This document shows, in pieces, positions 33,643 to 45,015 of a DNA stretch of 45,015 nt; positions within the stretch are counted from its first letter, which is position 1; each line of letters begins with the position of its first letter. Source of the stretch: an uncultured bacterium (GTDB lineage Bacteria; Verrucomicrobiota; Kiritimatiellia; RFP12; UBA3636). Both the position numbers and the translations under genes were made by a program. Location: positions 1 to 45,015 of the forward strand of contig CADBEF010000006.1 in assembly GCA_902793555.1 (NCBI GenBank), read 5' to 3'. The notes below the pieces were generated by a model. The model had not been told where the DNA came from. It did no database searches and saw only the letters and a list, made by a program, of their open reading frames with translations.

Positions 33643-34926
33643 ATGAGCGCTCCCCTTCCGTCTCCGTCCTCTTTCTCGCGCACCGACCTGCGCGTGGTGT
33701 TCCTGCTGGTCCTCGGCTACTCGTGCGCCTACCTCGGGCGCCTGGACATGGGCGCGTCGATCCTCCCGATGTCCGCCGCGCTGGGCTGGAGCAACGAGAC
33801 GCTCGGCACGCTGCCCTCCTGCTTCTTCGTCGCCTACGCCTGCGGCCAGCTCGCGAGCGGGATCCTCGCGCATTTCTTCAATCCGTTCTGGTCGTTCGGC
33901 CTCGCGATCGCCGGTTCGGCGCTGTGCAACCTCGCGGTCCCGCTGGCGCCCGGCCTGGCGGCGATGCGCGCGGCCTGGTTCGCCAACGGCGCCGTCCAGT
34001 CGATGCTCTGGTGCAGCCTCGTCAAGGCGATGTCCCAGCGTGTGTCGGAGCGCGCCATGCCGCGCGCGATCGTCTGCGTCTGCGCGACGCTGCCGATCGG
34101 CAGCGTCGCCGCGTTCGGCGGCGCCGCCGCGTTCGCGCCGTCCGGTTTCTGGCAGGGGACGTTCTACCGCGCCGCCGCCGCGCTCGGTCTCTCGGCCGCG
34201 CTCTGGTTCCGCTTCTACCGCTTCCCCGCGCCGCCGGACGGCGCGCCCGCCGCGCATGCCGCCGCGAAGTCGTATCCGCGCGCGACGCGCTTCGCCGCCG
34301 GGTCGGGCGGCGGGGCGGCCGGCCCCGGCTGGCGGTCCGTCGCGGCGCTCGTCGCGGCGACGGCGCTCGCCTGCGGTGCGTGCGGTTTCCTGCGCGACGG
34401 CCTTTCGACCTGGGCGCCCAAGGTCCTGCAGGACGGCTTCGGCCTGCCGGCGTCGATCTCCATCCTCTTGACGCTCGTGCTGCCGTTCGTGGGCCTCGCG
34501 GGTGCGTTCCTCAACAAGCGCTTCCACGAGCGCCAGCCGCTGGTCTCGGCCATGACGACGGTCTGTTTCGTCGCGGGGACGGCCTTCGCGGCGCTCGCGC
34601 TGCTGGGCGTCGCCCTGCCGTCGCTCGCGGTCGCCGTCGTCGCCTTCGCCGGCGTCTACCTCGCGATGGTCATGGTCACCAACGCGATCACGAGCATCTT
34701 CTGCCTGGCCTACCGCCGCCTGTTCGACGCGGCGCTCGCGGCCGGCATCGTGGACACGGTCTGCTACGTCGGCTCGTCCCTGGCGACATGGAGCCTCGGC
34801 CGCGCGTTCGACTCCGGCGGCGGCTGGACGCCCGTCTTCGCGATGCTCGCCGTCTCCGGCGTGGCGGGTCTGCTCTTCTCGCTCGCCGCGCTCCGCGTCG
34901 AGCGCCGCGTCGCGGCGGCGCGCTAG
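33643..34926 (+). CDS. Major facilitator superfamily transporter
   Basis: 427 residues with about twelve hydrophobic helices. The N-terminal helix reads VVFLLVLGYSCAYLGRLDMG, followed by LPSCFFVAYACGQLASGILA, typical of the organophosphate:phosphate antiporter group (GlpT/UhpT-like), and a central loop at about 205-225. The second half contains LRDGLSTWAPKVLQDGFGLP, again like OPA transporters. Substrates of that group are sugar phosphates and glycerol phosphate, but the match is by pattern only. Its stop TAG is shared in CTAG with pyrE on the other strand. Confidence 0.8.
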   Translation: MSAPLPSPSSFSRTDLRVVFLLVLGYSCAYLGRLDMGASILPMSAALGWSNETLGTLPSCFFVAYACGQLASGILAHFFNPFWSFGLAIAGSALCNLAVPLAPGLAAMRAAWFANGAVQSMLWCSLVKAMSQRVSERAMPRAIVCVCATLPIGSVAAFGGAAAFAPSGFWQGTFYRAAAALGLSAALWFRFYRFPAPPDGAPAAHAAAKSYPRATRFAAGSGGGAAGPGWRSVAALVAATALACGACGFLRDGLSTWAPKVLQDGFGLPASISILLTLVLPFVGLAGAFLNKRFHERQPLVSAMTTVCFVAGTAFAALALLGVALPSLAVAVVAFAGVYLAMVMVTNAITSIFCLAYRRLFDAALAAGIVDTVCYVGSSLATWSLGRAFDSGGGWTPVFAMLAVSGVAGLLFSLAALRVERRVAAAR

Positions 34927-35495
34927 GAGCCCGGGTGGACCGGCCTGCCGCCCGACGCGCAGAGCGGGCACGCGGCCGGCTCCCAGGTGACGGGCTCCAT
35001 CTTCAGCAGCGAGAAGTGCGGGATGTCGCCGAACGACGCCTTGCCGCCGCTGCGGTCCACGAGCGTGACGACCGCGAGGACGCGGCCGCCGAGGTTTTCG
35101 ACGATGTCGATCGTCTCCTGCACGCGGCCGCCGCGCGTCACGACGTCCTCCGCGACGATGCACGGCTCGCCCGGCTCGACCGCGAAGCGGCGCATCACGA
35201 GCGCGCCGTCCTTCTTCTCGGCGAAGATGCACTTCTTGTCGAGCGCTCGGGCCACCTCGTGCCCGACGAGGATGCCGCCGAGCGCGGGCGAGACGACCGT
35301 CGTCGCCGCCGCCGCGAGCTCCGCGGGGACCTTCGCCGCCAGCTCCGCGCAGAGCTTCTCGGCCTTGCGCGGCCAGCGCAGCAGGTTCGCGCACTGGAAG
35401 AACTCGGGGCTGTGCAGCCCGGAGCGCAGCTCGAAGTGGCCGCGCAGCAGCGCGCCGGTTTCGGAAAGGACGGAAAGGACGTCTTGTTCGGTCAT
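34923..35495 (-). CDS. pyrE: Orotate phosphoribosyltransferase
   Basis: 190 residues from ATG 35495. The substrate region is GALLRGHFELRSGLHSPEFF, then VVSPALGGILVGHEVARALD and the PRPP-binding motif CIVAEDVVTRGGRVQETIDI, where most PyrE proteins have EDVVTTGGS. The C-terminal part carries two Cys in AACPLCASGG, a feature of some PVC and thermophile enzymes. The enzyme makes orotidine monophosphate in pyrimidine synthesis. The longer open frame upstream passes through the promoter and repeat array and is excluded. Confidence 0.92.
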   Translation of the reverse strand: MTEQDVLSVLSETGALLRGHFELRSGLHSPEFFQCANLLRWPRKAEKLCAELAAKVPAELAAAATTVVSPALGGILVGHEVARALDKKCIFAEKKDGALVMRRFAVEPGEPCIVAEDVVTRGGRVQETIDIVENLGGRVLAVVTLVDRSGGKASFGDIPHFSLLKMEPVTWEPAACPLCASGGRPVHPGS

Positions 35496-35572: not shown

Positions 35573-35588
35573 CCGGCAACGCCAGCAG

Positions 35589-35731
35589 ATGACTTGCCGA
35601 CGGGTCGGTTGACTTGCCGACTGGACCGGTTTTCCGCCTCAAGTCGCCGAGTCGTCCGGTCGCCAAGTCGCGAAGATGACTTGTCGACTTGCCGACTTGC
35701 CGACGGGACCGAGTTTCCGCCTCAAGTCGCC
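35589..35731. repeat. Degenerate 8-bp periodic array with a 38-bp direct repeat
   Basis: The stretch is built from octamers such as TTGCCGAC, TTGTCGAC and AAGTCGCC. A 38-bp element occurs at 35611-35648 and 35694-35731 with three mismatches. It fills the space between the stop of the large surface protein gene and the pyrE promoter. Confidence 0.8.
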
Positions 35732-35746
35732 CGCTCGCCGCGATCC

Positions 35747-38700
35747 CTACGGCATCTCCACTCTCACGCGGAAGAACCGGTGCGTGGCGTTGGTCGGGCT
35801 CGTCCACCCGGTGTCGGACAGCTTCTCCTTGCCCTCCACGGTGTACACCCGCTCGTTCCTTGCCCCGCCCTCGTTCAAGTCGGGCGACCACTTCACGTCC
35901 GCTACGCCGCCGGTTATGTTGATCGTCGCGATGAACCGTTCATCCGCGTTAGTCGGGCACAACCCCGCCACGTAGCATTCCCAGACTTGGTTTGCGCCAT
36001 TGGCGCCTTGGCCGTTCGCGACTGCTTCATAGTCGTTATTCCATCTCGCGAGCAAGTCGGGAAACCCGTTCAGCCAGATACGGGGAACCGGAACGGGTGT
36101 CGTTTCGGTGAAGCCGCCCGGGATAATTCCGTTCCAGTTCACCCGGTCGAGATATGCACAGTCGGACATCGTTCCTTCCTCGCCGGCGTTCCAGAATTCA
36201 AACCGGATTTCGTGCTCGCCGTCGCCTTTGACCTCCAGGGAGCATTCTGTCCAAGACGTCACTTCGTAGAGTCCGTCAACGAGTTCGCCGTCCAGGAAAA
36301 CGTCAACGCCGGCGCTGCCCGCCATCGACAGCTTCCATGTCCAGGCAAGCGTCCCTGGTCCCGTGACGGTCGTTCGCAGTACGCTTGCATCGTCGCCCCG
36401 AACGCTGCCGCTCTTCGCGGCGTCCTCGCCATCCGAACTCTCGGATTCCTCGGGGAACCAGGCTGCCGGATCGTACGAGAGCCATTTGAGACCGTGTGTG
36501 TCAAGTGAACCGGCCAGCGTCAGCTCGCGTCCGCAAAGCGTGATCCGGCAACTGCGTCCGCACCAGAATGACAGGTTCTCCCCCGACGGGTCGAAAAGGA
36601 CGCGATGGTAGGCGTTTGAACTTTCTAGATGTCCGGTTGTGTCCCAGGAAGCGGGCGACGCCATCGCCAGTTTGTCGCTGAGTGGAGCCATAATCGGAGG
36701 AGGTATCGGTGGGTCGTACCAGAAGTCGTAGATTCCGTATTTGTTTGACGTCTCCAAGTCTTCGACATGCATCGACCACGAAACGTACGGTGCGAGCGGA
36801 ACAACGGATACGCTGTTCGCAGATTGTGTTCCAACCCAGCCGTTTGTGAAAGCGGCTCGGACGCAACCGTCGGTTTCGATTTCGATCCAAACGTCCCTGT
36901 GCCAGCACCAGTGCAACTGGGAGTTATTCGTAATCGCGAACGAAACATGGTTGCTTGAGCCGAATGCCGGAAGACTTCCTGTCCCTCCATACCACCCGGC
37001 ACAGCGGAGCCGTTCCCTTGTTCCGACGATTTCCGCCTCGGCCGACGCCTCGATGGCGTCTCCCCACAGATTGGTGTGAACGCCGATTGCGGGTTCGCAA
37101 TGGTCTGCTATGGACGAAACCGCGAGAGTCACATAGGGACGCCACACCACGTTGTCCAGACATGCCCGGTCCTCGCCCGCAGCCGAGGTTGTCCCTTTGG
37201 CATAGTTCCAGCGAACGGCATGCTCGCCTTCGCCGATTTCGATCGTTTCACCCGTCCACTCGGTCGTTCCGGTGATTCGTTTCCATTGCGTGCCATCCAC
37301 GAGGACCTGCGCATCGTGGCCGCGGTTGTTGCATGACACGCGCCAGTCGAAATCGAGCCGCCCCGGCCCGGTCACGGCGATTTCCGTCCAGGAGTCGCTG
37401 CTTGGACCGATTTGACCGCTTCGGAGGAATCCGGACTCGTCGTTTTCGTCCGCGAAGTCGACGAACCATTCGGCGTCGCCGCCGTGCGTCCACTCGACCG
37501 GTTTGCCGCCGCCGCTCGCGGCTTCGGCGCGCGTCGTTCCCGTGAACTCGATCCGGACCGTCCGCGGTTTGTCCGCCGGGATTGAAATCGTCCGCGCGTC
37601 CGCATCTACCGAAACGCCATTCGTGTCACCCGCCATTGTCCATGCGAAACCGGTGTCCTTCGGTTTGAACGGAATCACGACCGTCGCGCCGAAATTCGTC
37701 CAGCATGGTTCGAAAGCGATGGATGCAAATCCGGTCGCCGAGCAGTCGATCCAGACATTTGTCGCCCAAGTCCAGACAATCGACGAGTCGACTTTAATCG
37801 TGAACGTCACGTTCGTGTCCGTTCCGGTTCCCGGGACGCTGCCCGTGCCGCGCCATCCGTTGCAGAATACATCCCATCCTTCTGCGTCCTCCGGTCCGGC
37901 AACGTTTGCCGATATTTCGTCACCCCAAGACCATTCCGTTGTCCCCGCTGGCGTCGCAGTTCCGTGCGCAGTGTCGACTGCAAGCGAGAGCTTGACCTCC
38001 TCGACCGTCACCGCGATGTTGCGCGGTCCGTCCGACGGAATAGTCAGCGTCGTTCCCGCGAGCGTCACGCCGTTCGTGTCGCCCGAAAGCGAAATCGTGT
38101 AGAGATGCGTAGTCGGCACAATTTTCGCCGTTTTCGTCAATCCGTTCTCAACCCATTGCGTGCCGAAGTCGCACGTTCCAAGCCCTGACATAGTCACGGC
38201 AATCTGGTTGTCTTTTCGCCAGTTCCAGGTTAGTGTCGAATCCACCTCGATTGTAAACGTCATATTCGTCGTCGCGCCACTCGCCGGAGCGCTGCCGGTG
38301 CCCGTCCATCCGGTGCAGACATATCTCACGCCATTGTCGGGAGCGTCGGTGGCAATGCTCGCGGAAACGGTATCGCCCCAAGACCATTCCGTTGTTCCGG
38401 TCGGCGATGCCGTTCCATGAGCCGTCTCGACCTCAAGCGCGAGTTTTACCTCCGAGACCGTCACCGCGATGTTCCGCGGTCCGTCCGATGGGATTGTCAG
38501 CGTCGTCCCCACGAGCGTCACGCCGTTCGTGTCTCCCGAAAGCGAAATTTGATAGAGATGCGTGTTAGGAACGATCTCCGCGGTTGCAGTCGTACCGTTT
38601 TCGATCCATTGAGTTCCAAAAGTGCATGAGGCGTCACCGGTGACGGAAACTACAAGTAGGTTGTCCGTTCTCCAATTCCACGTAATGGACGAATCTTCCA

Positions 38701-39922
38701 GAATCTTGAACATCACGTTTGTCGCCGTCCCGCTTGGCGGGACACTTCCTGTTCCGGTCCAACCCGTACAGACATGACGCATACCATTGGATGAACCTAC
38801 CTCAGCAACGCAAGCCGAAACATCTGTGACTTCTTTGTAGGTCCTTTGCCCGACTTCCGGAGAGGGAATCCCAAAATTGGAAACAATGGTTAACTCAGGA
38901 TTTGCATCAAAGAAATATACCGAACAGTCGGACGGAATGCCCAGCGAACTCGTAGCCCCGTAAAAACTCCGTGGCAGGTATAGTGTTTCTAGTCCGGAAA
39001 TCGAAAACGCACCGAGACCGATGTTCGTTATGCTATTCGGGATCGTTGCGGTCTTTAGTGAAAAACAATATTGAAATGCGCCTTCCCCGATGTCTCCCAC
39101 GTCATCAGGAATCGTGACCGACTTCAATCCGCGAAGCTGGTAAAACGCGTGGCTAGCAATGCTAGTTGTGCCCAAGTGGATGGTAACATTCGTGATGCTC
39201 TCATTCGGAAATCCGAAGACAGTGTGAAGAGCATAGTTTCCAGAAATGGAGACATCGCAAATGTTATCGCAGGCTCCAAACGCATCCTCCCCAATTTCCG
39301 TCACACTGTCGGGAATTGTGATCGAAGTTAGCCCGGAGCAACCGTAGAACGCATTCCATCCAATGCTTGTCACGCTGTCCGGAATCGTGACCGATGTTAG
39401 TCCGGAACAGCCTGAGAACACCGATCTTCCAATGCTCGTCACGCTATCGGGAATGACTAGGCTTGTGACTTCCTCGGCCTCCAAGAACAGATGGTGGGCG
39501 TAGTAGCAAGGATTATCTTCCTTGTAGTACCAATCAAATTTGCACCAGGTCTCCAAATCGGAAATATGGATCGCGTTTAGTCCGGAGCATCCGACAAACG
39601 AATACCGCCCGATTTTAGTCACACTGCTAGGAATCGAGACAGACGTTAAACTGGAACAAGCGTAAAAGGCATAGCCTTTGATTTCCGTCACGGGACAACC
39701 GCCAAGGAGTCCTGGGATAGAAATGTCGCCTGAAGTTGTTTTCGGGATGGACGTTGAAATTTGTTGTGAGTTTTCCCAGTGTCCGTAAAGCGCTGAACAA
39801 CCATTGGATTTTGTATACTTCCATTCGATTCCGTTCACGGTTTCTGTATAGACTGTTTCTGCAGAGGTCGCAATGGGGCAAAGGGCGAATAGACTGACTG
39901 CCAAGCGAAAGAGATGTTTCAT
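35747..39922 (-). CDS. Large secreted BspA-type leucine-rich-repeat surface protein
   Basis: 1391 residues; the start at 39922 is chosen for its signal peptide (MKHLFRLAVSLFALCPIATS). Residues about 60-330 are BspA-type LRR_5 units with a 23-residue period (SGCSGLTSVTIPDSVTSIGW). Then come three modules of about 150 residues (360-790) sharing VCTGWTGTGS, SLSGDTNGVTL and TLTIPSDGPRNIAVTV. Residues 800-1290 contain two jelly-roll-like parts (TVTGPGTLAWTWKL, VLVDGTQWKRITGTTEWTGE). The end has WECYVAGLCPTNADERFIAT and RVYTVEGKEKL...RFFRVRVEMP, a C-terminal module common in Kiritimatiellota-like secreted proteins. GC is below that of the core genes, most clearly over the LRR part. BspA proteins bind host or matrix proteins; the target here is unknown. 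Confidence 0.8.
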   Translation of the reverse strand: MKHLFRLAVSLFALCPIATSAETVYTETVNGIEWKYTKSNGCSALYGHWENSQQISTSIPKTTSGDISIPGLLGGCPVTEIKGYAFYACSSLTSVSIPSSVTKIGRYSFVGCSGLNAIHISDLETWCKFDWYYKEDNPCYYAHHLFLEAEEVTSLVIPDSVTSIGRSVFSGCSGLTSVTIPDSVTSIGWNAFYGCSGLTSITIPDSVTEIGEDAFGACDNICDVSISGNYALHTVFGFPNESITNVTIHLGTTSIASHAFYQLRGLKSVTIPDDVGDIGEGAFQYCFSLKTATIPNSITNIGLGAFSISGLETLYLPRSFYGATSSLGIPSDCSVYFFDANPELTIVSNFGIPSPEVGQRTYKEVTDVSACVAEVGSSNGMRHVCTGWTGTGSVPPSGTATNVMFKILEDSSITWNWRTDNLLVVSVTGDASCTFGTQWIENGTTATAEIVPNTHLYQISLSGDTNGVTLVGTTLTIPSDGPRNIAVTVSEVKLALEVETAHGTASPTGTTEWSWGDTVSASIATDAPDNGVRYVCTGWTGTGSAPASGATTNMTFTIEVDSTLTWNWRKDNQIAVTMSGLGTCDFGTQWVENGLTKTAKIVPTTHLYTISLSGDTNGVTLAGTTLTIPSDGPRNIAVTVEEVKLSLAVDTAHGTATPAGTTEWSWGDEISANVAGPEDAEGWDVFCNGWRGTGSVPGTGTDTNVTFTIKVDSSIVWTWATNVWIDCSATGFASIAFEPCWTNFGATVVIPFKPKDTGFAWTMAGDTNGVSVDADARTISIPADKPRTVRIEFTGTTRAEAASGGGKPVEWTHGGDAEWFVDFADENDESGFLRSGQIGPSSDSWTEIAVTGPGRLDFDWRVSCNNRGHDAQVLVDGTQWKRITGTTEWTGETIEIGEGEHAVRWNYAKGTTSAAGEDRACLDNVVWRPYVTLAVSSIADHCEPAIGVHTNLWGDAIEASAEAEIVGTRERLRCAGWYGGTGSLPAFGSSNHVSFAITNNSQLHWCWHRDVWIEIETDGCVRAAFTNGWVGTQSANSVSVVPLAPYVSWSMHVEDLETSNKYGIYDFWYDPPIPPPIMAPLSDKLAMASPASWDTTGHLESSNAYHRVLFDPSGENLSFWCGRSCRITLCGRELTLAGSLDTHGLKWLSYDPAAWFPEESESSDGEDAAKSGSVRGDDASVLRTTVTGPGTLAWTWKLSMAGSAGVDVFLDGELVDGLYEVTSWTECSLEVKGDGEHEIRFEFWNAGEEGTMSDCAYLDRVNWNGIIPGGFTETTPVPVPRIWLNGFPDLLARWNNDYEAVANGQGANGANQVWECYVAGLCPTNADERFIATINITGGVADVKWSPDLNEGGARNERVYTVEGKEKLSDTGWTSPTNATHRFFRVRVEMP
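37555..38842. repeat. Three tandem modules inside the surface protein gene
   Basis: Modules lie at about 38842-38450, 38449-37996 and 37995-37555. The first two are close at the DNA level around CGTCACCGCGATGTT and GAGCGTCACGCCGTTCGTGT, spaced 453 bp apart. The third is more diverged. Recombination between copies could shorten or lengthen the protein. Confidence 0.75.
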
Positions 39923-40026
39923 GACTTGGAATTGTTGCATGTTGAGGTTGAGTTGTTTCAGAATTCTGGGGTCCTTTGTTTGCCCAATTTTGGTTTGGTC
40001 CGATGCGAAGCGAAATTGCAATCTTG

Positions 40027-43000
40027 TTACGAGAGTAGTCCCAACCTTTCTTCAATCTCTGCTGTTCGACCATCATCTTTTAATTTCGGGTTTGCTAATA
40101 CCAGCTTGCGGACAGTTTCTTGATAACGATGACGTAATGGACGGAGACCTTGTCTTGGAATTGTTCTTATCAAGAATTCAAGAACCGTTTCCGGGAATTC
40201 GGTAACTATGGACTCCTTCTCCATCCAATCAAAGTTCACTAGCATTGGACCAAACTGGTGTTTGACGATGTCAAATGTCTCCTTGAAATGTCGGGGCGCC
40301 AAAATGCAAAGCTTAAACAACCCTTCGGACAAACGGCGAATGATATCTTCCGGACGTTGATGTCTTGCGCAAGCAAATGCGTAGCCATCCGTTTGGCGGG
40401 AAGAAGGTGTCGGTGCGAAAATAGATGGAGGACGAGGAAAATGCCAGTAGTTTCGCAAGAATGGTTCAATGCTTCCTTTCCATTTGTCTTCAATCGTTCT
40501 GTCGGTTCGGTGCAACTCACCTTCCAAAACGCCGACAACCTCCAGAAGTCCGTTTTCAATGGGCAATCTTGAAATCGCTCCCCTCAATTCGGAATAAGAC
40601 AACCTTTTCGTATTAGCCAGAGCGTACCGGGCAAGCAATCTGCTGTATCTTTTCTGTTTATCCCCTAGTCGCGCAAATCGCCGTGGGGTTGACGCATGAA
40701 GGAAATCAGTTCTGAATCGCCAGAGTTGGTCAACATCAACTTCTTCCCAATCAAGCAATTCCATCCAATGCACAGGAGTCGCGGAAGATATTTTCCGGAT
40801 TGCTGCGCGTTTCACAATATGCAGAGGACGCCCAAGCGGACCGTCTCGACAGATTGTATAGCCGCTAATCTCCGCTACATCAAGGCATTGAGACTTCTTC
40901 CATCCGAATTCGGCTTCACACCTACATAGCATCTCGACGGCATCACGTGAAAGTCCAACGCCAGACTGTTCCAGTCGAACCAACCGGGCGAATAGTTGGA
41001 AACACTCCGGATTGTTCATCATATCGGCAGAGGACGCAATCAAACCTTTGGGCCCTGTTCGGATTGCGGCTTCCAAAGAATCAAGATCGCCAATCTTCAA
41101 GCGATTCGCTGTTTTCAAAAGTTTCCCTACTTCCCGTTGCGCCTCCGGATTCCATAAAAGACTGGATTCTGGATGCGTCAGCCACGAACACCACTCCGCT
41201 GGGGGGATGTGTTCCGTAACCGCCGCTCCGTACAGTGCCACACGACGGAAAAGAATAGAAGGGTGGTGAATCCAATGTCGAATATATCTAGATGCCGCAT
41301 TGGGGTCTTTTCTAGACAATGCATTCCAGCATTCTCGCAGAAGAAACACGAGGATTTCCCATTCGCGGCAATGTTCGTTCTGTTCGTGCGAAGAAATTGA
41401 TGGAATGCTTTGTTCTGCCCAATGGCACTGTAAATCGCCTCCAGCGAATTGCGAGAGTTTGAGGTAATCTTCTATGAGTCGTTCATACGTGGAAATCAAG
41501 GCGTCCGACACGAGATGGGGTAATTTGCAGAGTTCGGTCGAGTCGTCAAACACGCAGGAAAAGGACGGCCGCGAAGCTAGAACGACATCAAAATGAAGCG
41601 ATGGTTCCGGTCGATCACCATCTGTGTTTCGAATTACCGGCATTTCGTTATGAAGCGGTCGGAAAACGAGTTTGGGCTCGAACAACCGTGCCAATTCCAC
41701 TTGAACGGTCGTTAAATCTACCGGTTTTGCATCAGGTTCAAAAAGGTGAGAACAGTCAGAATCAAAGTCTTCGACAAGAATCATTTTGCCGGCAAGGAAC
41801 ATGCGTAAAACGGATGCCAATCTGGAATCGGACAACGTTCTTGCGCAATCTAGAAGTTCCAAACGAAAACGCCAATGGATCTGTGTGTTATGAGAAAAGA
41901 GCCAAGAGAAAAAATGTGGCGCTGCGACAAGTTTCCCAAGCCAACCAATGATATGAAAGGCGATGTGCGACACGTTTTCAAAACGATCGGAAAACAGTGT
42001 GGCTACCTGATCGCGAGTGCCATATTCGAAGTCGCTCTCAAATATCCGCAACCAACCCAATTGCGGCGGGGGAGAAATGGATGCGAACAATTCTGCGGGG
42101 ATTCCAGAAGAATCTGATAGCGCATAGAGCAGTTTTTCGTCAAGGCCTTCCGAACGTGCAACATTGGGATCAAGTGGTGCGATCGTGTTAACAAGCTTGC
42201 ACTTTCCGGAAAGACCCGAGCTGAATAAATCAGCCCAACCATGGAGTGTCTTGTGAAGCGAGCTGTGATCTGTCCCCTGAACACAATACCACAGGGGCGT
42301 TACTCCTTTTGAATGCCAGCTTGATTCTTCTTCTTCGCGTTTCTCGGGTTTCGTCCCGCAAAAGGCGAACATTTCGGAAACTGTATCGTCTCCGTTCTTG
42401 TTGGATGCTTGAAGCGATTCTGTCAGGTATCGAAGAATCGGATCGTTGAGGCTGTATCCAACGAAACAAACGGTGAATGACTTGAATAAGCTGGATACAA
42501 AGCTGGATGCCCATCCTTCCGACAGGTATGCCATTCCGAAATCGGCGCTAGTGGCGACGAGAATGGATCGTTTCGAGTCGTCCGGTGAGTCGGTTAGTAA
42601 TCCATGTAGATAGACCAGTCCGTTCCATTGACTCGGTTTCGGAATGGGGAGAGCTGGAGGGATAAAGACTGAAGAGTCATACTTGAGATGTTCGTTCGCT
42701 TTCTCGAATAACCGATCCCAATTCGTTGTAACAAGCCGCAAATCGTACTGATGTGTATTCGGGTTTCTGTGTCGGCTCAATCGTAGTATGTCTGTATGTA
42801 AAGAAATGTCCGGATTGTTCTTTTGGCATTGATTGAAGACCTTCCAAATTGTTGGATTGAGGGCATGAGGTTCTGGATACTCCCTTTCCAGTAGACCGAG
42901 CGCCAAGTCGTACGATTGTGCAGCCAATGCAGCTTTTTGCTCTTCGGTCTTCGTCGGTGACAACTGCAAAAACACACGCTCCGTCAACTCGTCGAAGAGC

Positions 43001-43113
43001 GGAATCCCTGCATCTTTCGAGATCCCCGCGCCGCAAAAGAAGACAACCTCGCCATCCTGGTGCGCGCGCAACAGGGCGGGGGGAATGTCGGGGCCGTTTT
43101 CGACGAACTTCAT
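40027..43113 (-). CDS. SIR2-domain protein, probable anti-phage NADase (DSR-like)
   Basis: 1028 residues from ATG 43113, with GAGGA about ten bases upstream. Residues 15-295 form a SIR2 domain: VVFFCGAGISKDAGIPLFDE (GAGIS at 28-32), VTTNWDRLF (Asn131), YLHG (His170) and FVGYSLNDPILRYL (217-230). Asn131 and His170 correspond to the catalytic pair of defence sirtuins such as DSR2 and ThsA, so NAD hydrolysis is likely. The remaining 730 residues are helical with no motif I recognise; in DSR proteins this part senses phage components. GC is far below the neighbours apart from the first 30 codons. No HerA, TIR or other partner gene is adjacent, so it appears to act alone. Possible alternative: a SIR2 protein with a non-defence role. 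Confidence 0.8.
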   Translation of the reverse strand: MKFVENGPDIPPALLRAHQDGEVVFFCGAGISKDAGIPLFDELTERVFLQLSPTKTEEQKAALAAQSYDLALGLLEREYPEPHALNPTIWKVFNQCQKNNPDISLHTDILRLSRHRNPNTHQYDLRLVTTNWDRLFEKANEHLKYDSSVFIPPALPIPKPSQWNGLVYLHGLLTDSPDDSKRSILVATSADFGMAYLSEGWASSFVSSLFKSFTVCFVGYSLNDPILRYLTESLQASNKNGDDTVSEMFAFCGTKPEKREEEESSWHSKGVTPLWYCVQGTDHSSLHKTLHGWADLFSSGLSGKCKLVNTIAPLDPNVARSEGLDEKLLYALSDSSGIPAELFASISPPPQLGWLRIFESDFEYGTRDQVATLFSDRFENVSHIAFHIIGWLGKLVAAPHFFSWLFSHNTQIHWRFRLELLDCARTLSDSRLASVLRMFLAGKMILVEDFDSDCSHLFEPDAKPVDLTTVQVELARLFEPKLVFRPLHNEMPVIRNTDGDRPEPSLHFDVVLASRPSFSCVFDDSTELCKLPHLVSDALISTYERLIEDYLKLSQFAGGDLQCHWAEQSIPSISSHEQNEHCREWEILVFLLRECWNALSRKDPNAASRYIRHWIHHPSILFRRVALYGAAVTEHIPPAEWCSWLTHPESSLLWNPEAQREVGKLLKTANRLKIGDLDSLEAAIRTGPKGLIASSADMMNNPECFQLFARLVRLEQSGVGLSRDAVEMLCRCEAEFGWKKSQCLDVAEISGYTICRDGPLGRPLHIVKRAAIRKISSATPVHWMELLDWEEVDVDQLWRFRTDFLHASTPRRFARLGDKQKRYSRLLARYALANTKRLSYSELRGAISRLPIENGLLEVVGVLEGELHRTDRTIEDKWKGSIEPFLRNYWHFPRPPSIFAPTPSSRQTDGYAFACARHQRPEDIIRRLSEGLFKLCILAPRHFKETFDIVKHQFGPMLVNFDWMEKESIVTEFPETVLEFLIRTIPRQGLRPLRHRYQETVRKLVLANPKLKDDGRTAEIEERLGLLS

Positions 43114-43403
43114 GGGCGGGGGTTCCTCGGAGACCGCTCGCGGCAGACAGAAAGAAAAAGCACGTCTTTCCTTCGTGTTTCCATGCGAGGCTCTTGCAGG
43201 AGGCCTTTCCCGGATACACGCGGAAAGACGCGCCTTGTCGGGCTCGTCTTCGCCGCCGTTCGTCCGGGAATGTGAAAATCCTGCAAGATTTCGCATGGAC
43301 GTCGTGCGCGATTACGCAAAAGTGGTCAGTGGGTTGATGGGTTCAGGAGGCGGATTTCTCCGGGGGTGGCATGGGCGCGGCGGGGTGCCGCGCGGACAAG
43401 GGG
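43114..43403 (-). other. Long leader upstream of the SIR2 gene
   Basis: About 290 bases lie between the only visible minus-strand promoter (43432-43404) and the SIR2 start. The SIR2 frame stays open up to 43296 without a family match. Short frames on both strands show no recognisable product. Part of the stretch could be a remnant of an older gene or a regulatory leader. I see no tRNA, inverted repeat or integrase site. Confidence 0.4.
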
Positions 43404-43432
43404 AATGTAGCACAAACGGCCGGCCGCGGCAA
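43404..43432 (-). promoter_or_regulatory. Candidate promoter for the SIR2 gene
   Basis: TTGCCG (43432-43427), 17 bp, TACATT (43409-43404). It matches the local promoter pattern and points at the SIR2 gene, but lies almost 300 bases from its ATG. It is back to back with the uvrA-like promoter. Confidence 0.5.
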
Positions 43433-43468
43433 GCCGTTTTCGCGGCACCGCGAACGGGCGCGGGGGCG

Positions 43469-43498
43469 TTGCCCCGGGCGCGGGGGTTGTGCTAGAAT
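43469..43498 (+). promoter_or_regulatory. Promoter of the uvrA-like gene
   Basis: TTGCCC (43469-43474), 18 bp, TAGAAT (43493-43498) with extended TGC; seven bases to the ATG. Confidence 0.7.
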
Positions 43499-43505
43499 GC
43501 GCGGC

Positions 43506-45015
43506 ATGGACGACGCGACCCACGGCGCCGCCGGCTGGATCGAGATCCGCGGCGCGCGAACACACAACCTCCAGGACGTCTCGCTGCGCTTCCCGCGCGG
43601 CGAGATGACGGTCGTGACGGGCGTGTCCGGCTCCGGCAAGACGTCCCTCGCGTTCGACACAGTCTTCGCCGAGGGCCTGCGCCGCTACCTCGACAGCCTC
43701 CCGAACCACGCGCGCCAGTTCCTCGACCGCATGGAGCGGCCGGACGTCGATTTCGTCGGCGGCCTCGCGCCCGCGATCTCCATCGGCCGCTCGGCGTCCG
43801 CCCCCGGCCCGCGCTCCACGCTCGCCACGCTCGCCGACCTGCACGATTTCCTGCGCCTCCTGTTCGCCCACCTCGGCGTCGCGCACTGCCCGCGCTGCGG
43901 CCGGGCCATCCGCGCCGTCGCCCCCGGCGCGCTCGCCGAGGAGCTCCTGCGCGAGCCCGAGGGGACGAAGCTCTCGATCCTCTCGCCGATGCTGCGCCCG
44001 TCGGCGGACCGGCGGTCCGCCGACGGGCGCGAATGCCTCGAGGACGCCGAGAGGGCCGGGTTCGTCCGCGTGCGGATCGACGGCGAGGTGAAGGCGGTCG
44101 AGGACGTGTCGTCCGAGGAAGCCGCCCGCGCGCGGCAGATCGACGCCGTCGTCGACCGCGTGGTCGTCCGCGAGGGCGTCCGCGCGCGGCTCGCCGATTC
44201 GGTCGAGCTCGCGATGAAGCGCAGCGGCGGCGAGATCCGCCTGCTCGTGCAGCGCCCCGGCGAGGCGGAGCCGTCGCTCCGCAACGAGTCGGCGCGCCTG
44301 GCGTGCCCCGACTGCGACGTCGCGTTCGACCGGCTCTCGCCCGCGCACTTCTCGTTCAACTCGCACGCCGGCGCGTGCCCCCGCTGCGAGGGGCTCGGCG
44401 TCGACGCCGCCGGCCGCCGCTGCAAGGCGTGCGGCGGCGCGCGCCTGCGGCCCGAGTCCCTCGCGTGCCGCATCCCGTTCCCGGCGGAGCCCGGCGCCAA
44501 CATCGCGGACCTGCTCGCGCTGCCGCTTTCGGGGCTCCGCGCGTGGGCCGCGGGCTACGCCGCCTCGCTGGGCGGGGCGGCCGCCCGCATCGCCAGGCCG
44601 ATCCTCGCGGGGCTGCGCGAGCGGCTCGACTTCCTCGACGAGGCCGGGCTCGGCTACCTGCAGGCGGAGCGACCGGCCGCGACGCTCTCCGGCGGCGAGC
44701 TGCGCCGCGTGCGCCTCGCCTCCGCGCTCGGCCAGCGGCTGGGCGGCGCGCTCTACGTGCTGGACGAGCCGTCCGCCGGCCTGCACCCGCGTGACGCCGG
44801 CGCGCTCGTCGCGCTGCTGGGGCGCCTCAAGTCGCTCGGCAACACGCTGCTCGTCGTCGAGCACAACCCGGTCGTCGCGGCGGCCGCCGACTGGATCGTG
44901 GAGCTCGGCCCCGGCGCCGGGCGCGAAGGCGGGCGCGTGCTCTACAGCGGTCCGCCGCGCCCCGCGGAGGCCGCGCCCGCGCCGGGCGCGGCGCGGCGTC
45001 CGGCCGCGGCGGCGC
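43506..45015 (+). CDS. uvrA: UvrA-type excinuclease ATPase, 3' part beyond window
   Basis: 503 codons are present with no stop. The first ABC module is complete: WIEIRGARTHNLQDVSLRFP, Walker A GVSGSGKTS, the zinc-finger region CPDC...CPRCEGLG, signature LSGGELRRVRLASALG, Walker B LYVLDEPSAGLHPRD and VVEHN. GLAPAISIGRSASAPGPRST corresponds to the UvrA segment that usually reads GLSPAISIDQ. UvrA recognises DNA damage and loads UvrB. Several normally strict positions differ (for example LSGGELRR in place of LSGGEAQR), and the sequence ends in an Ala/Pro-rich stretch, so this may be a paralogue rather than the housekeeping UvrA. The second half, needed to decide, is outside the window. Confidence 0.85.
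   Translation, partial: MDDATHGAAGWIEIRGARTHNLQDVSLRFPRGEMTVVTGVSGSGKTSLAFDTVFAEGLRRYLDSLPNHARQFLDRMERPDVDFVGGLAPAISIGRSASAPGPRSTLATLADLHDFLRLLFAHLGVAHCPRCGRAIRAVAPGALAEELLREPEGTKLSILSPMLRPSADRRSADGRECLEDAERAGFVRVRIDGEVKAVEDVSSEEAARARQIDAVVDRVVVREGVRARLADSVELAMKRSGGEIRLLVQRPGEAEPSLRNESARLACPDCDVAFDRLSPAHFSFNSHAGACPRCEGLGVDAAGRRCKACGGARLRPESLACRIPFPAEPGANIADLLALPLSGLRAWAAGYAASLGGAAARIARPILAGLRERLDFLDEAGLGYLQAERPAATLSGGELRRVRLASALGQRLGGALYVLDEPSAGLHPRDAGALVALLGRLKSLGNTLLVVEHNPVVAAAADWIVELGPGAGREGGRVLYSGPPRPAEAAPAPGAARRPAAAA

Follow-up and report, generated by a model that had tools for sequence, protein, structure and literature searches.

What is the foreign-looking SIR2 gene near the end of this stretch of DNA, and what does its product do? 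The window is the whole stretch that we analyzed, 45,015 nucleotides of a contig from an uncultured bacterium. The gene (dsr1-like gene; 40027..43113, minus strand, stop codon included) encodes a protein of 1028 amino acids. A sequence-only reading had described this protein as a stand-alone, probable anti-phage abortive-infection effector of uncertain type. We suggest, with a probability of roughly 75%, that the gene was acquired horizontally and forms by itself a Dsr1-type phage defense that depletes NAD and has a shortened helical sensor.

We found that the reading frame is intact. There are 1028 uninterrupted codons on the minus strand between 40027 and 43113, and the three motifs noticed earlier are real: GAGIS at residues 28-32, TTNWD at 129-133, and HG at 170-171. 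A longer frame on the same strand reaches up to 43296. We preferred the ATG at 43113, which is likely the start, because the homologues all begin at the equivalent position (motif M-x-F-x-x-G-P-D-I-P) and because a possible ribosome-binding site (GAGGAA, 43123..43128, minus strand; read directly, by consensus only) lies just upstream. Promoter and terminator scans gave results no better than chance. The GC content of the dsr1-like region is 47-49%, compared to about 70-75% in the surrounding contig, and GC3 is 0.48, compared to 0.96 in pyrE. The sharply deviating base composition described in the sequence-only reading was borne out, and this foreign composition and the absence of the gene from congeners support its proposal of recent acquisition.

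By homology, the window protein is a divergent, shortened variant of the Dsr1 lineage and not canonical Dsr1, and it probably acts like Dsr1. It matched the NCBIfam Dsr1 model (NF041818) with 609.9 bits (E = 9.7e-183) and the PADLOC Dsr1 model with E = 3.5e-149 over residues 1-729. Homology to Dsr1 models extends beyond the SIR2 domain, through residues 1-736 and again through 799-1022. The type is therefore not uncertain, as had been supposed, and the 730 residues said to match no family (residues 300-1028) match Dsr1. In BLASTP comparisons, residues 1-736 were 30-34% identical to many Dsr1 proteins (from Pseudomonadota and other phyla, prophages included). The C-terminal end matched Dsr1 proteins with a best E of 7e-14, aligning to about 1075-1268 of the canonical protein. 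The score of 609.9 bits is below the equivalog cut-off of NF041818 (1400 bits), and most full-length members that we tested scored 1609-1996 bits. This cut-off was also missed by one other homologue (L093; 1145 bits) and by a Zymomonas relative (336 bits). We filed the window protein as a variant because it lacks both a score above the cut-off and the full-length sensor.

Dsr1 proteins come from several phyla, and the searches made found no close relative of the window protein. We scanned for homologues with one genome per species, a search that had been proposed as a check on the sequence-only reading. Nearly all of the best 80 of 457 Dsr1 loci were 30-34% identical to the window protein, and most were 1245-1281 residues long. 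These 80 came from Pseudomonadota, several other phyla, and one archaeon. A further 17 loci were on viral contigs (predicted viral or prophage sequence), and Dsr1 genes are present on plasmids and prophages. The closest relative found in the searches made was only about 34% identical overall. There was no close relative in phage records or on viral contigs searched with peptides of the window protein itself, no full-length match on plasmids, and no close homologue in 59 near relatives apart from one weak SIR2-only match. Ten other congeners did not have the dsr1-like gene. Both the class and the phylum have few Dsr1-like proteins: besides the window's own, 3 of 346 genomes of the class had a Dsr1-like match, and the two of these that were examined had open frames of about 1280 codons. 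In a tree of the SIR2 part, the window protein paired with the Zymomonas relative. We gave this pairing no weight because both branches are long. The Zymomonas protein (Zymomonas mobilis plasmid pZM32; L009:4001-7729) is a very divergent full-length Dsr1 relative, with its 336 bits to the Dsr1 model, and is annotated merely as a SIR2 family protein.

The SIR2 NADase domain (residues 1-305; 42199..43113, minus strand) has a complete active site. It matched Pfam SIR2_2 (E = 3e-19), and no other domain was found in a Pfam search of the protein. Most of the GAGIS, TTNWD, and HG motifs were invariant across 46 Dsr1 homologues, and N131, D133, H170, and the GAG loop (G28-A29-G30) were invariant in the 47-sequence alignment of these homologues and the window protein. 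We counted conserved positions, with a threshold of 90% or more of the homologues, per segment of a canonical member (L016). Of the 128 such positions in canonical 1-300, 94 are retained in the window protein, and the catalytic residues expected of Dsr1 (N131, D133, H170, GAGIS) are all present. N131, D133, and H170 correspond to N133, D135, and H171 of DSR2, and mutation of these DSR2 residues is reported to lower NADase activity (PMC11263360, PMC10973363). We infer that the dsr1-like protein hydrolyzes NAD+. The earlier view of a SIR2 defense-type protein was supported.

The sensor lacks a large block. About 200-235 residues of the conserved sensor are missing, the whole protein is about 235 residues shorter than canonical Dsr1, and the deficit is mostly at one place. 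The first part of the helical sensor (residues 306-736; 40906..42198, minus strand) is homologous to about 301-800 of canonical Dsr1, and the C-terminal part (residues 799-1028; 40030..40719, minus strand) to the C-terminal ~190-200 residues. Between them, a short divergent stretch of about 60 residues (737-798; 40720..40905, minus strand) stands in place of about 801-1050 of the canonical protein and marks the site of the lost solenoid block. The window protein keeps 26/35 conserved positions in canonical 551-700, 12/22 in 701-800, and 8/9 in 1071-1140, but only 5/46 in 801-1070. The full-length helical sensor, about 960 residues in Dsr1, is not present in this protein of 1028 residues. The general layout that had been likened to DSR1 and DSR2, with SIR2 first and a helical sensor after it, is correct; the likeness in length to DSR1 is not, by about 235 residues.

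An internal gap like this one was absent from every other intact Dsr1 sampled. Two other short proteins (L090, 1001 amino acids; L056, 1153 amino acids) were considered as fellow gapped members and rejected, as both are cut at the C-terminus and have no internal gap. Because the loss is localized in 801-1070, the flanks are conserved, and the other short proteins are merely C-terminally truncated, we take the gap to be real as sequence and specific, within the Dsr1 sample at hand. The gap could also be a false join in the assembly of an otherwise ordinary Dsr1 gene. The ~60 divergent residues argue against a clean false join.

Structure models agree with the position of the gap. The AlphaFold2 model of the window protein had a mean pLDDT of 79.6, with values below 50 at residues 744-782, where the block is missing, and high confidence in the C-terminal end beyond it. 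The model of the canonical Dsr1 sensor had a mean pLDDT of 87.3, and the block missing from the window protein was a run of well-predicted helices, with pLDDT mostly above 90. Compared in isolation, this canonical sensor matched only generic HEAT-like solenoids (importins, for example), and none of its 50 best matches was DSR2. Judged from these models, the sensor is a HEAT-like solenoid. A viral fold library gave no match at E <= 0.001, and a sequence search for a solved Dsr1 structure found none.

The fold comparison proposed in the sequence-only reading gave a divided answer. The best PDB matches of the full window model were DSR2 chains (E = 7e-9, >1000 alignment columns), followed by the NADases ThsA and KomC. 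Despite this E value, superposition on DSR2 was poor, with a global TM-score of about 0.23 and an rmsd above 24 A. A sequence-profile search to DSR2 matched only positions 15-57 (E = 0.02). We rejected membership in DSR2 on sequence, since the profile match is confined to about the first 45 residues of the SIR2 domain. The tail tube, which DSR2 senses, should not be taken as the trigger of the window protein, because DSR2 was not among the 50 best matches of the canonical Dsr1 C-terminal model.

The main rival to a working Dsr1-type defense is a decaying Dsr1 copy, in which the sensor core was lost in frame, phage sensing is gone, and only the recent or silent nature of the loss has kept the frame open. 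Near-total loss of the 46-position block (5 kept) could abolish sensing. The block is well folded in canonical Dsr1 (pLDDT mostly above 90), carries conserved motifs, and is present in every other intact Dsr1 sampled, all of which favor decay, as does the long branch of the window protein. However, the 1028 codons are free of stops and frameshifts, the SIR2 site is fully retained, and the C-terminal end past the gap is confidently modeled and keeps 8 of 9 conserved positions. Furthermore, the block was not cleanly excised: roughly 60 divergent residues take its place, which suggests an old, tolerated change. On balance, we consider decay unlikely. A functional minimal Dsr1, with some 200-235 residues of the HEAT-like solenoid gone, control of the NADase kept, and the trigger or the mode of autoinhibition altered, is a possibility that we offer only tentatively.

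The genomic site also bears on function. The dsr1-like gene is in a 7.9-kb variable cargo (35578..43440) between two conserved flanks. The left flank contains pyrE (34923..35495, minus strand), and the right flank a uvrA-like gene (43497..45015, plus strand; Pfam UvrA_inter) that runs off the contig. A congener (G002) has both on one contig and encodes a 97% identical PyrE protein and a 98% identical segment of the UvrA-like protein. DNA homology between the window and G002 ends at 35577 on the left and about 43441 on the right. The window cargo consists of an LRR gene and the dsr1-like gene. In G002, the same site holds a different cargo of 10.6 kb (L125:556-11195), with a methyltransferase, an Eco57I/ResIII-type enzyme, an HTH and M78 protease pair, a DUF4417 protein, and an AAA ATPase that matches the defense-candidate family PDC-S27 (620 bits). 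By gene content, the two cargoes of this one site are unrelated, and that of G002 is plainly of the defense type. The comparison rests on G002, as the other congeners did not have pyrE and the uvrA-like gene on one retrieved stretch. These two genomes suggest that the pyrE/uvrA-like interval is a site of defense-gene exchange in this high-GC genus.

We saw no integrase and no att repeats at the cargo edges; the one repeat there, 38 nt long, is local and close to the left edge. Its direct copies, at 35611-35648 and 35694-35731, are 92% alike and have degenerate copies around them. They lie in the interval that separates pyrE from the LRR gene, near the end of the G002 homology. Elsewhere in the genome this repeat had one weak match only.

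The protein might instead, as an NAD-hydrolyzing SIR2 member of the Dsr1 lineage, be directed against a non-phage target, such as competing mobile elements or plasmids that enter the cell. There are other SIR2 systems that respond to plasmids, and Dsr1 genes are found on plasmids and prophages. However, the nearest characterized relatives are phage defenses, and the G002 cargo at the same site is a restriction-type defense. We regard a non-phage target as improbable.

The other cargo gene encodes a BspA-type LRR surface protein (35747..39922, minus strand; Pfam LRR_5), and long paralogues of this protein are numerous in the same genome. The gene has internal repeats, one of them 270 nt long (at 37898 and 38351). 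In a set of 46 non-redundant Dsr1 loci, recurrent neighbors were mostly restriction-modification genes, at a minority of loci; there was no obligate or recurrent partner beyond these, and the LRR protein was not a recurrent neighbor. The claim of a single gene without a partner held. The neighboring surface protein mentioned in the sequence-only reading belongs to a family that is multi-copy in the genome and does not recur beside Dsr1. It is most improbable that the two genes form a unit in which the LRR protein provides the sensing that the shortened sirtuin lacks: they are on the same strand, about 100 bp apart, and both within the variable cargo, but the start of the LRR protein resembles a signal peptide, its paralogues elsewhere in the genome are many, the genes differ in composition (GC3 of 0.65 for the LRR gene and 0.48 for the dsr1-like gene), and the 46 loci had no such recurrent partner. 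A canonical-length Dsr1 in the same class (G422, L155:1173-11545) interrupts a type I restriction-modification operon, with hsdS on one side and hsdR on the other. At 4 of the 46 other loci, the gene immediately upstream of Dsr1 belongs to a family that has a type I specificity subunit among its members.

We return to the reading of the gene as a Dsr1-type phage defense. It is based on the Dsr1 homology in residues 1-736 and 799-1022, the full catalytic set, the intact frame, the foreign and patchy origin, and the exchangeable site; the 609.9 bits, below the 1400-bit equivalog cut-off, count against it. The C-terminal helical solenoid would hold the N-terminal SIR2 NAD+ hydrolase inactive. Binding of a phage product to the solenoid would release the SIR2 site, which would cut NAD+ to ADP-ribose and nicotinamide and so starve phage replication. 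The shortened solenoid would still work, probably with a changed or narrower range of triggers. We left the abortive-infection label open because DSR1, unlike other SIR2 systems, is reported to block phage without killing the cell (PMC10952713, a review that cites Garb et al. 2022). The earlier assignment to abortive infection is, on that account, not established.

Because this natural variant lacks a large conserved block of the sensor, it can serve as a deletion mutant of Dsr1. If the variant defends, the block is dispensable for control of the NADase and is probably what determines trigger specificity; if it fails to defend, the block is essential. Apart from the gap and the exchange site, the gene is an ordinary extension of a known defense family.

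Compared to known systems, the window protein shares with ThsA, KomC, Avs5, and SIR2-HerA the SIR2 NADase core with GAG and TTN-D motifs. It differs from them in that only the SIR2 domain aligns and there is no SLOG domain, STAND ATPase, or HerA partner. DSR2 (B. subtilis 29R; PDB 8W56, 8WYB, and others) is similar in its N-terminal SIR2 domain, equivalent catalytic residues, helical C-terminal part, and total length (1005 amino acids, compared to 1028), and it gave the top fold matches. In contrast, the sequence profile matches only the first ~45 SIR2 residues, and the TM-score is about 0.23. Canonical Dsr1 is longer (about 1245-1281 amino acids), most of its residues 801-1070 are missing from the window protein, the score is 610 bits against a cut-off of 1400, and the nearest relative is about 34% identical overall. 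Nevertheless, the window protein and Dsr1 have the same start motif, SIR2 NADase domain, helical C-terminal domain, and single-gene organization, about 30-34% identity in residues 1-736 and about 20-28% in 799-1022, and a common setting in mobile elements and defense islands.
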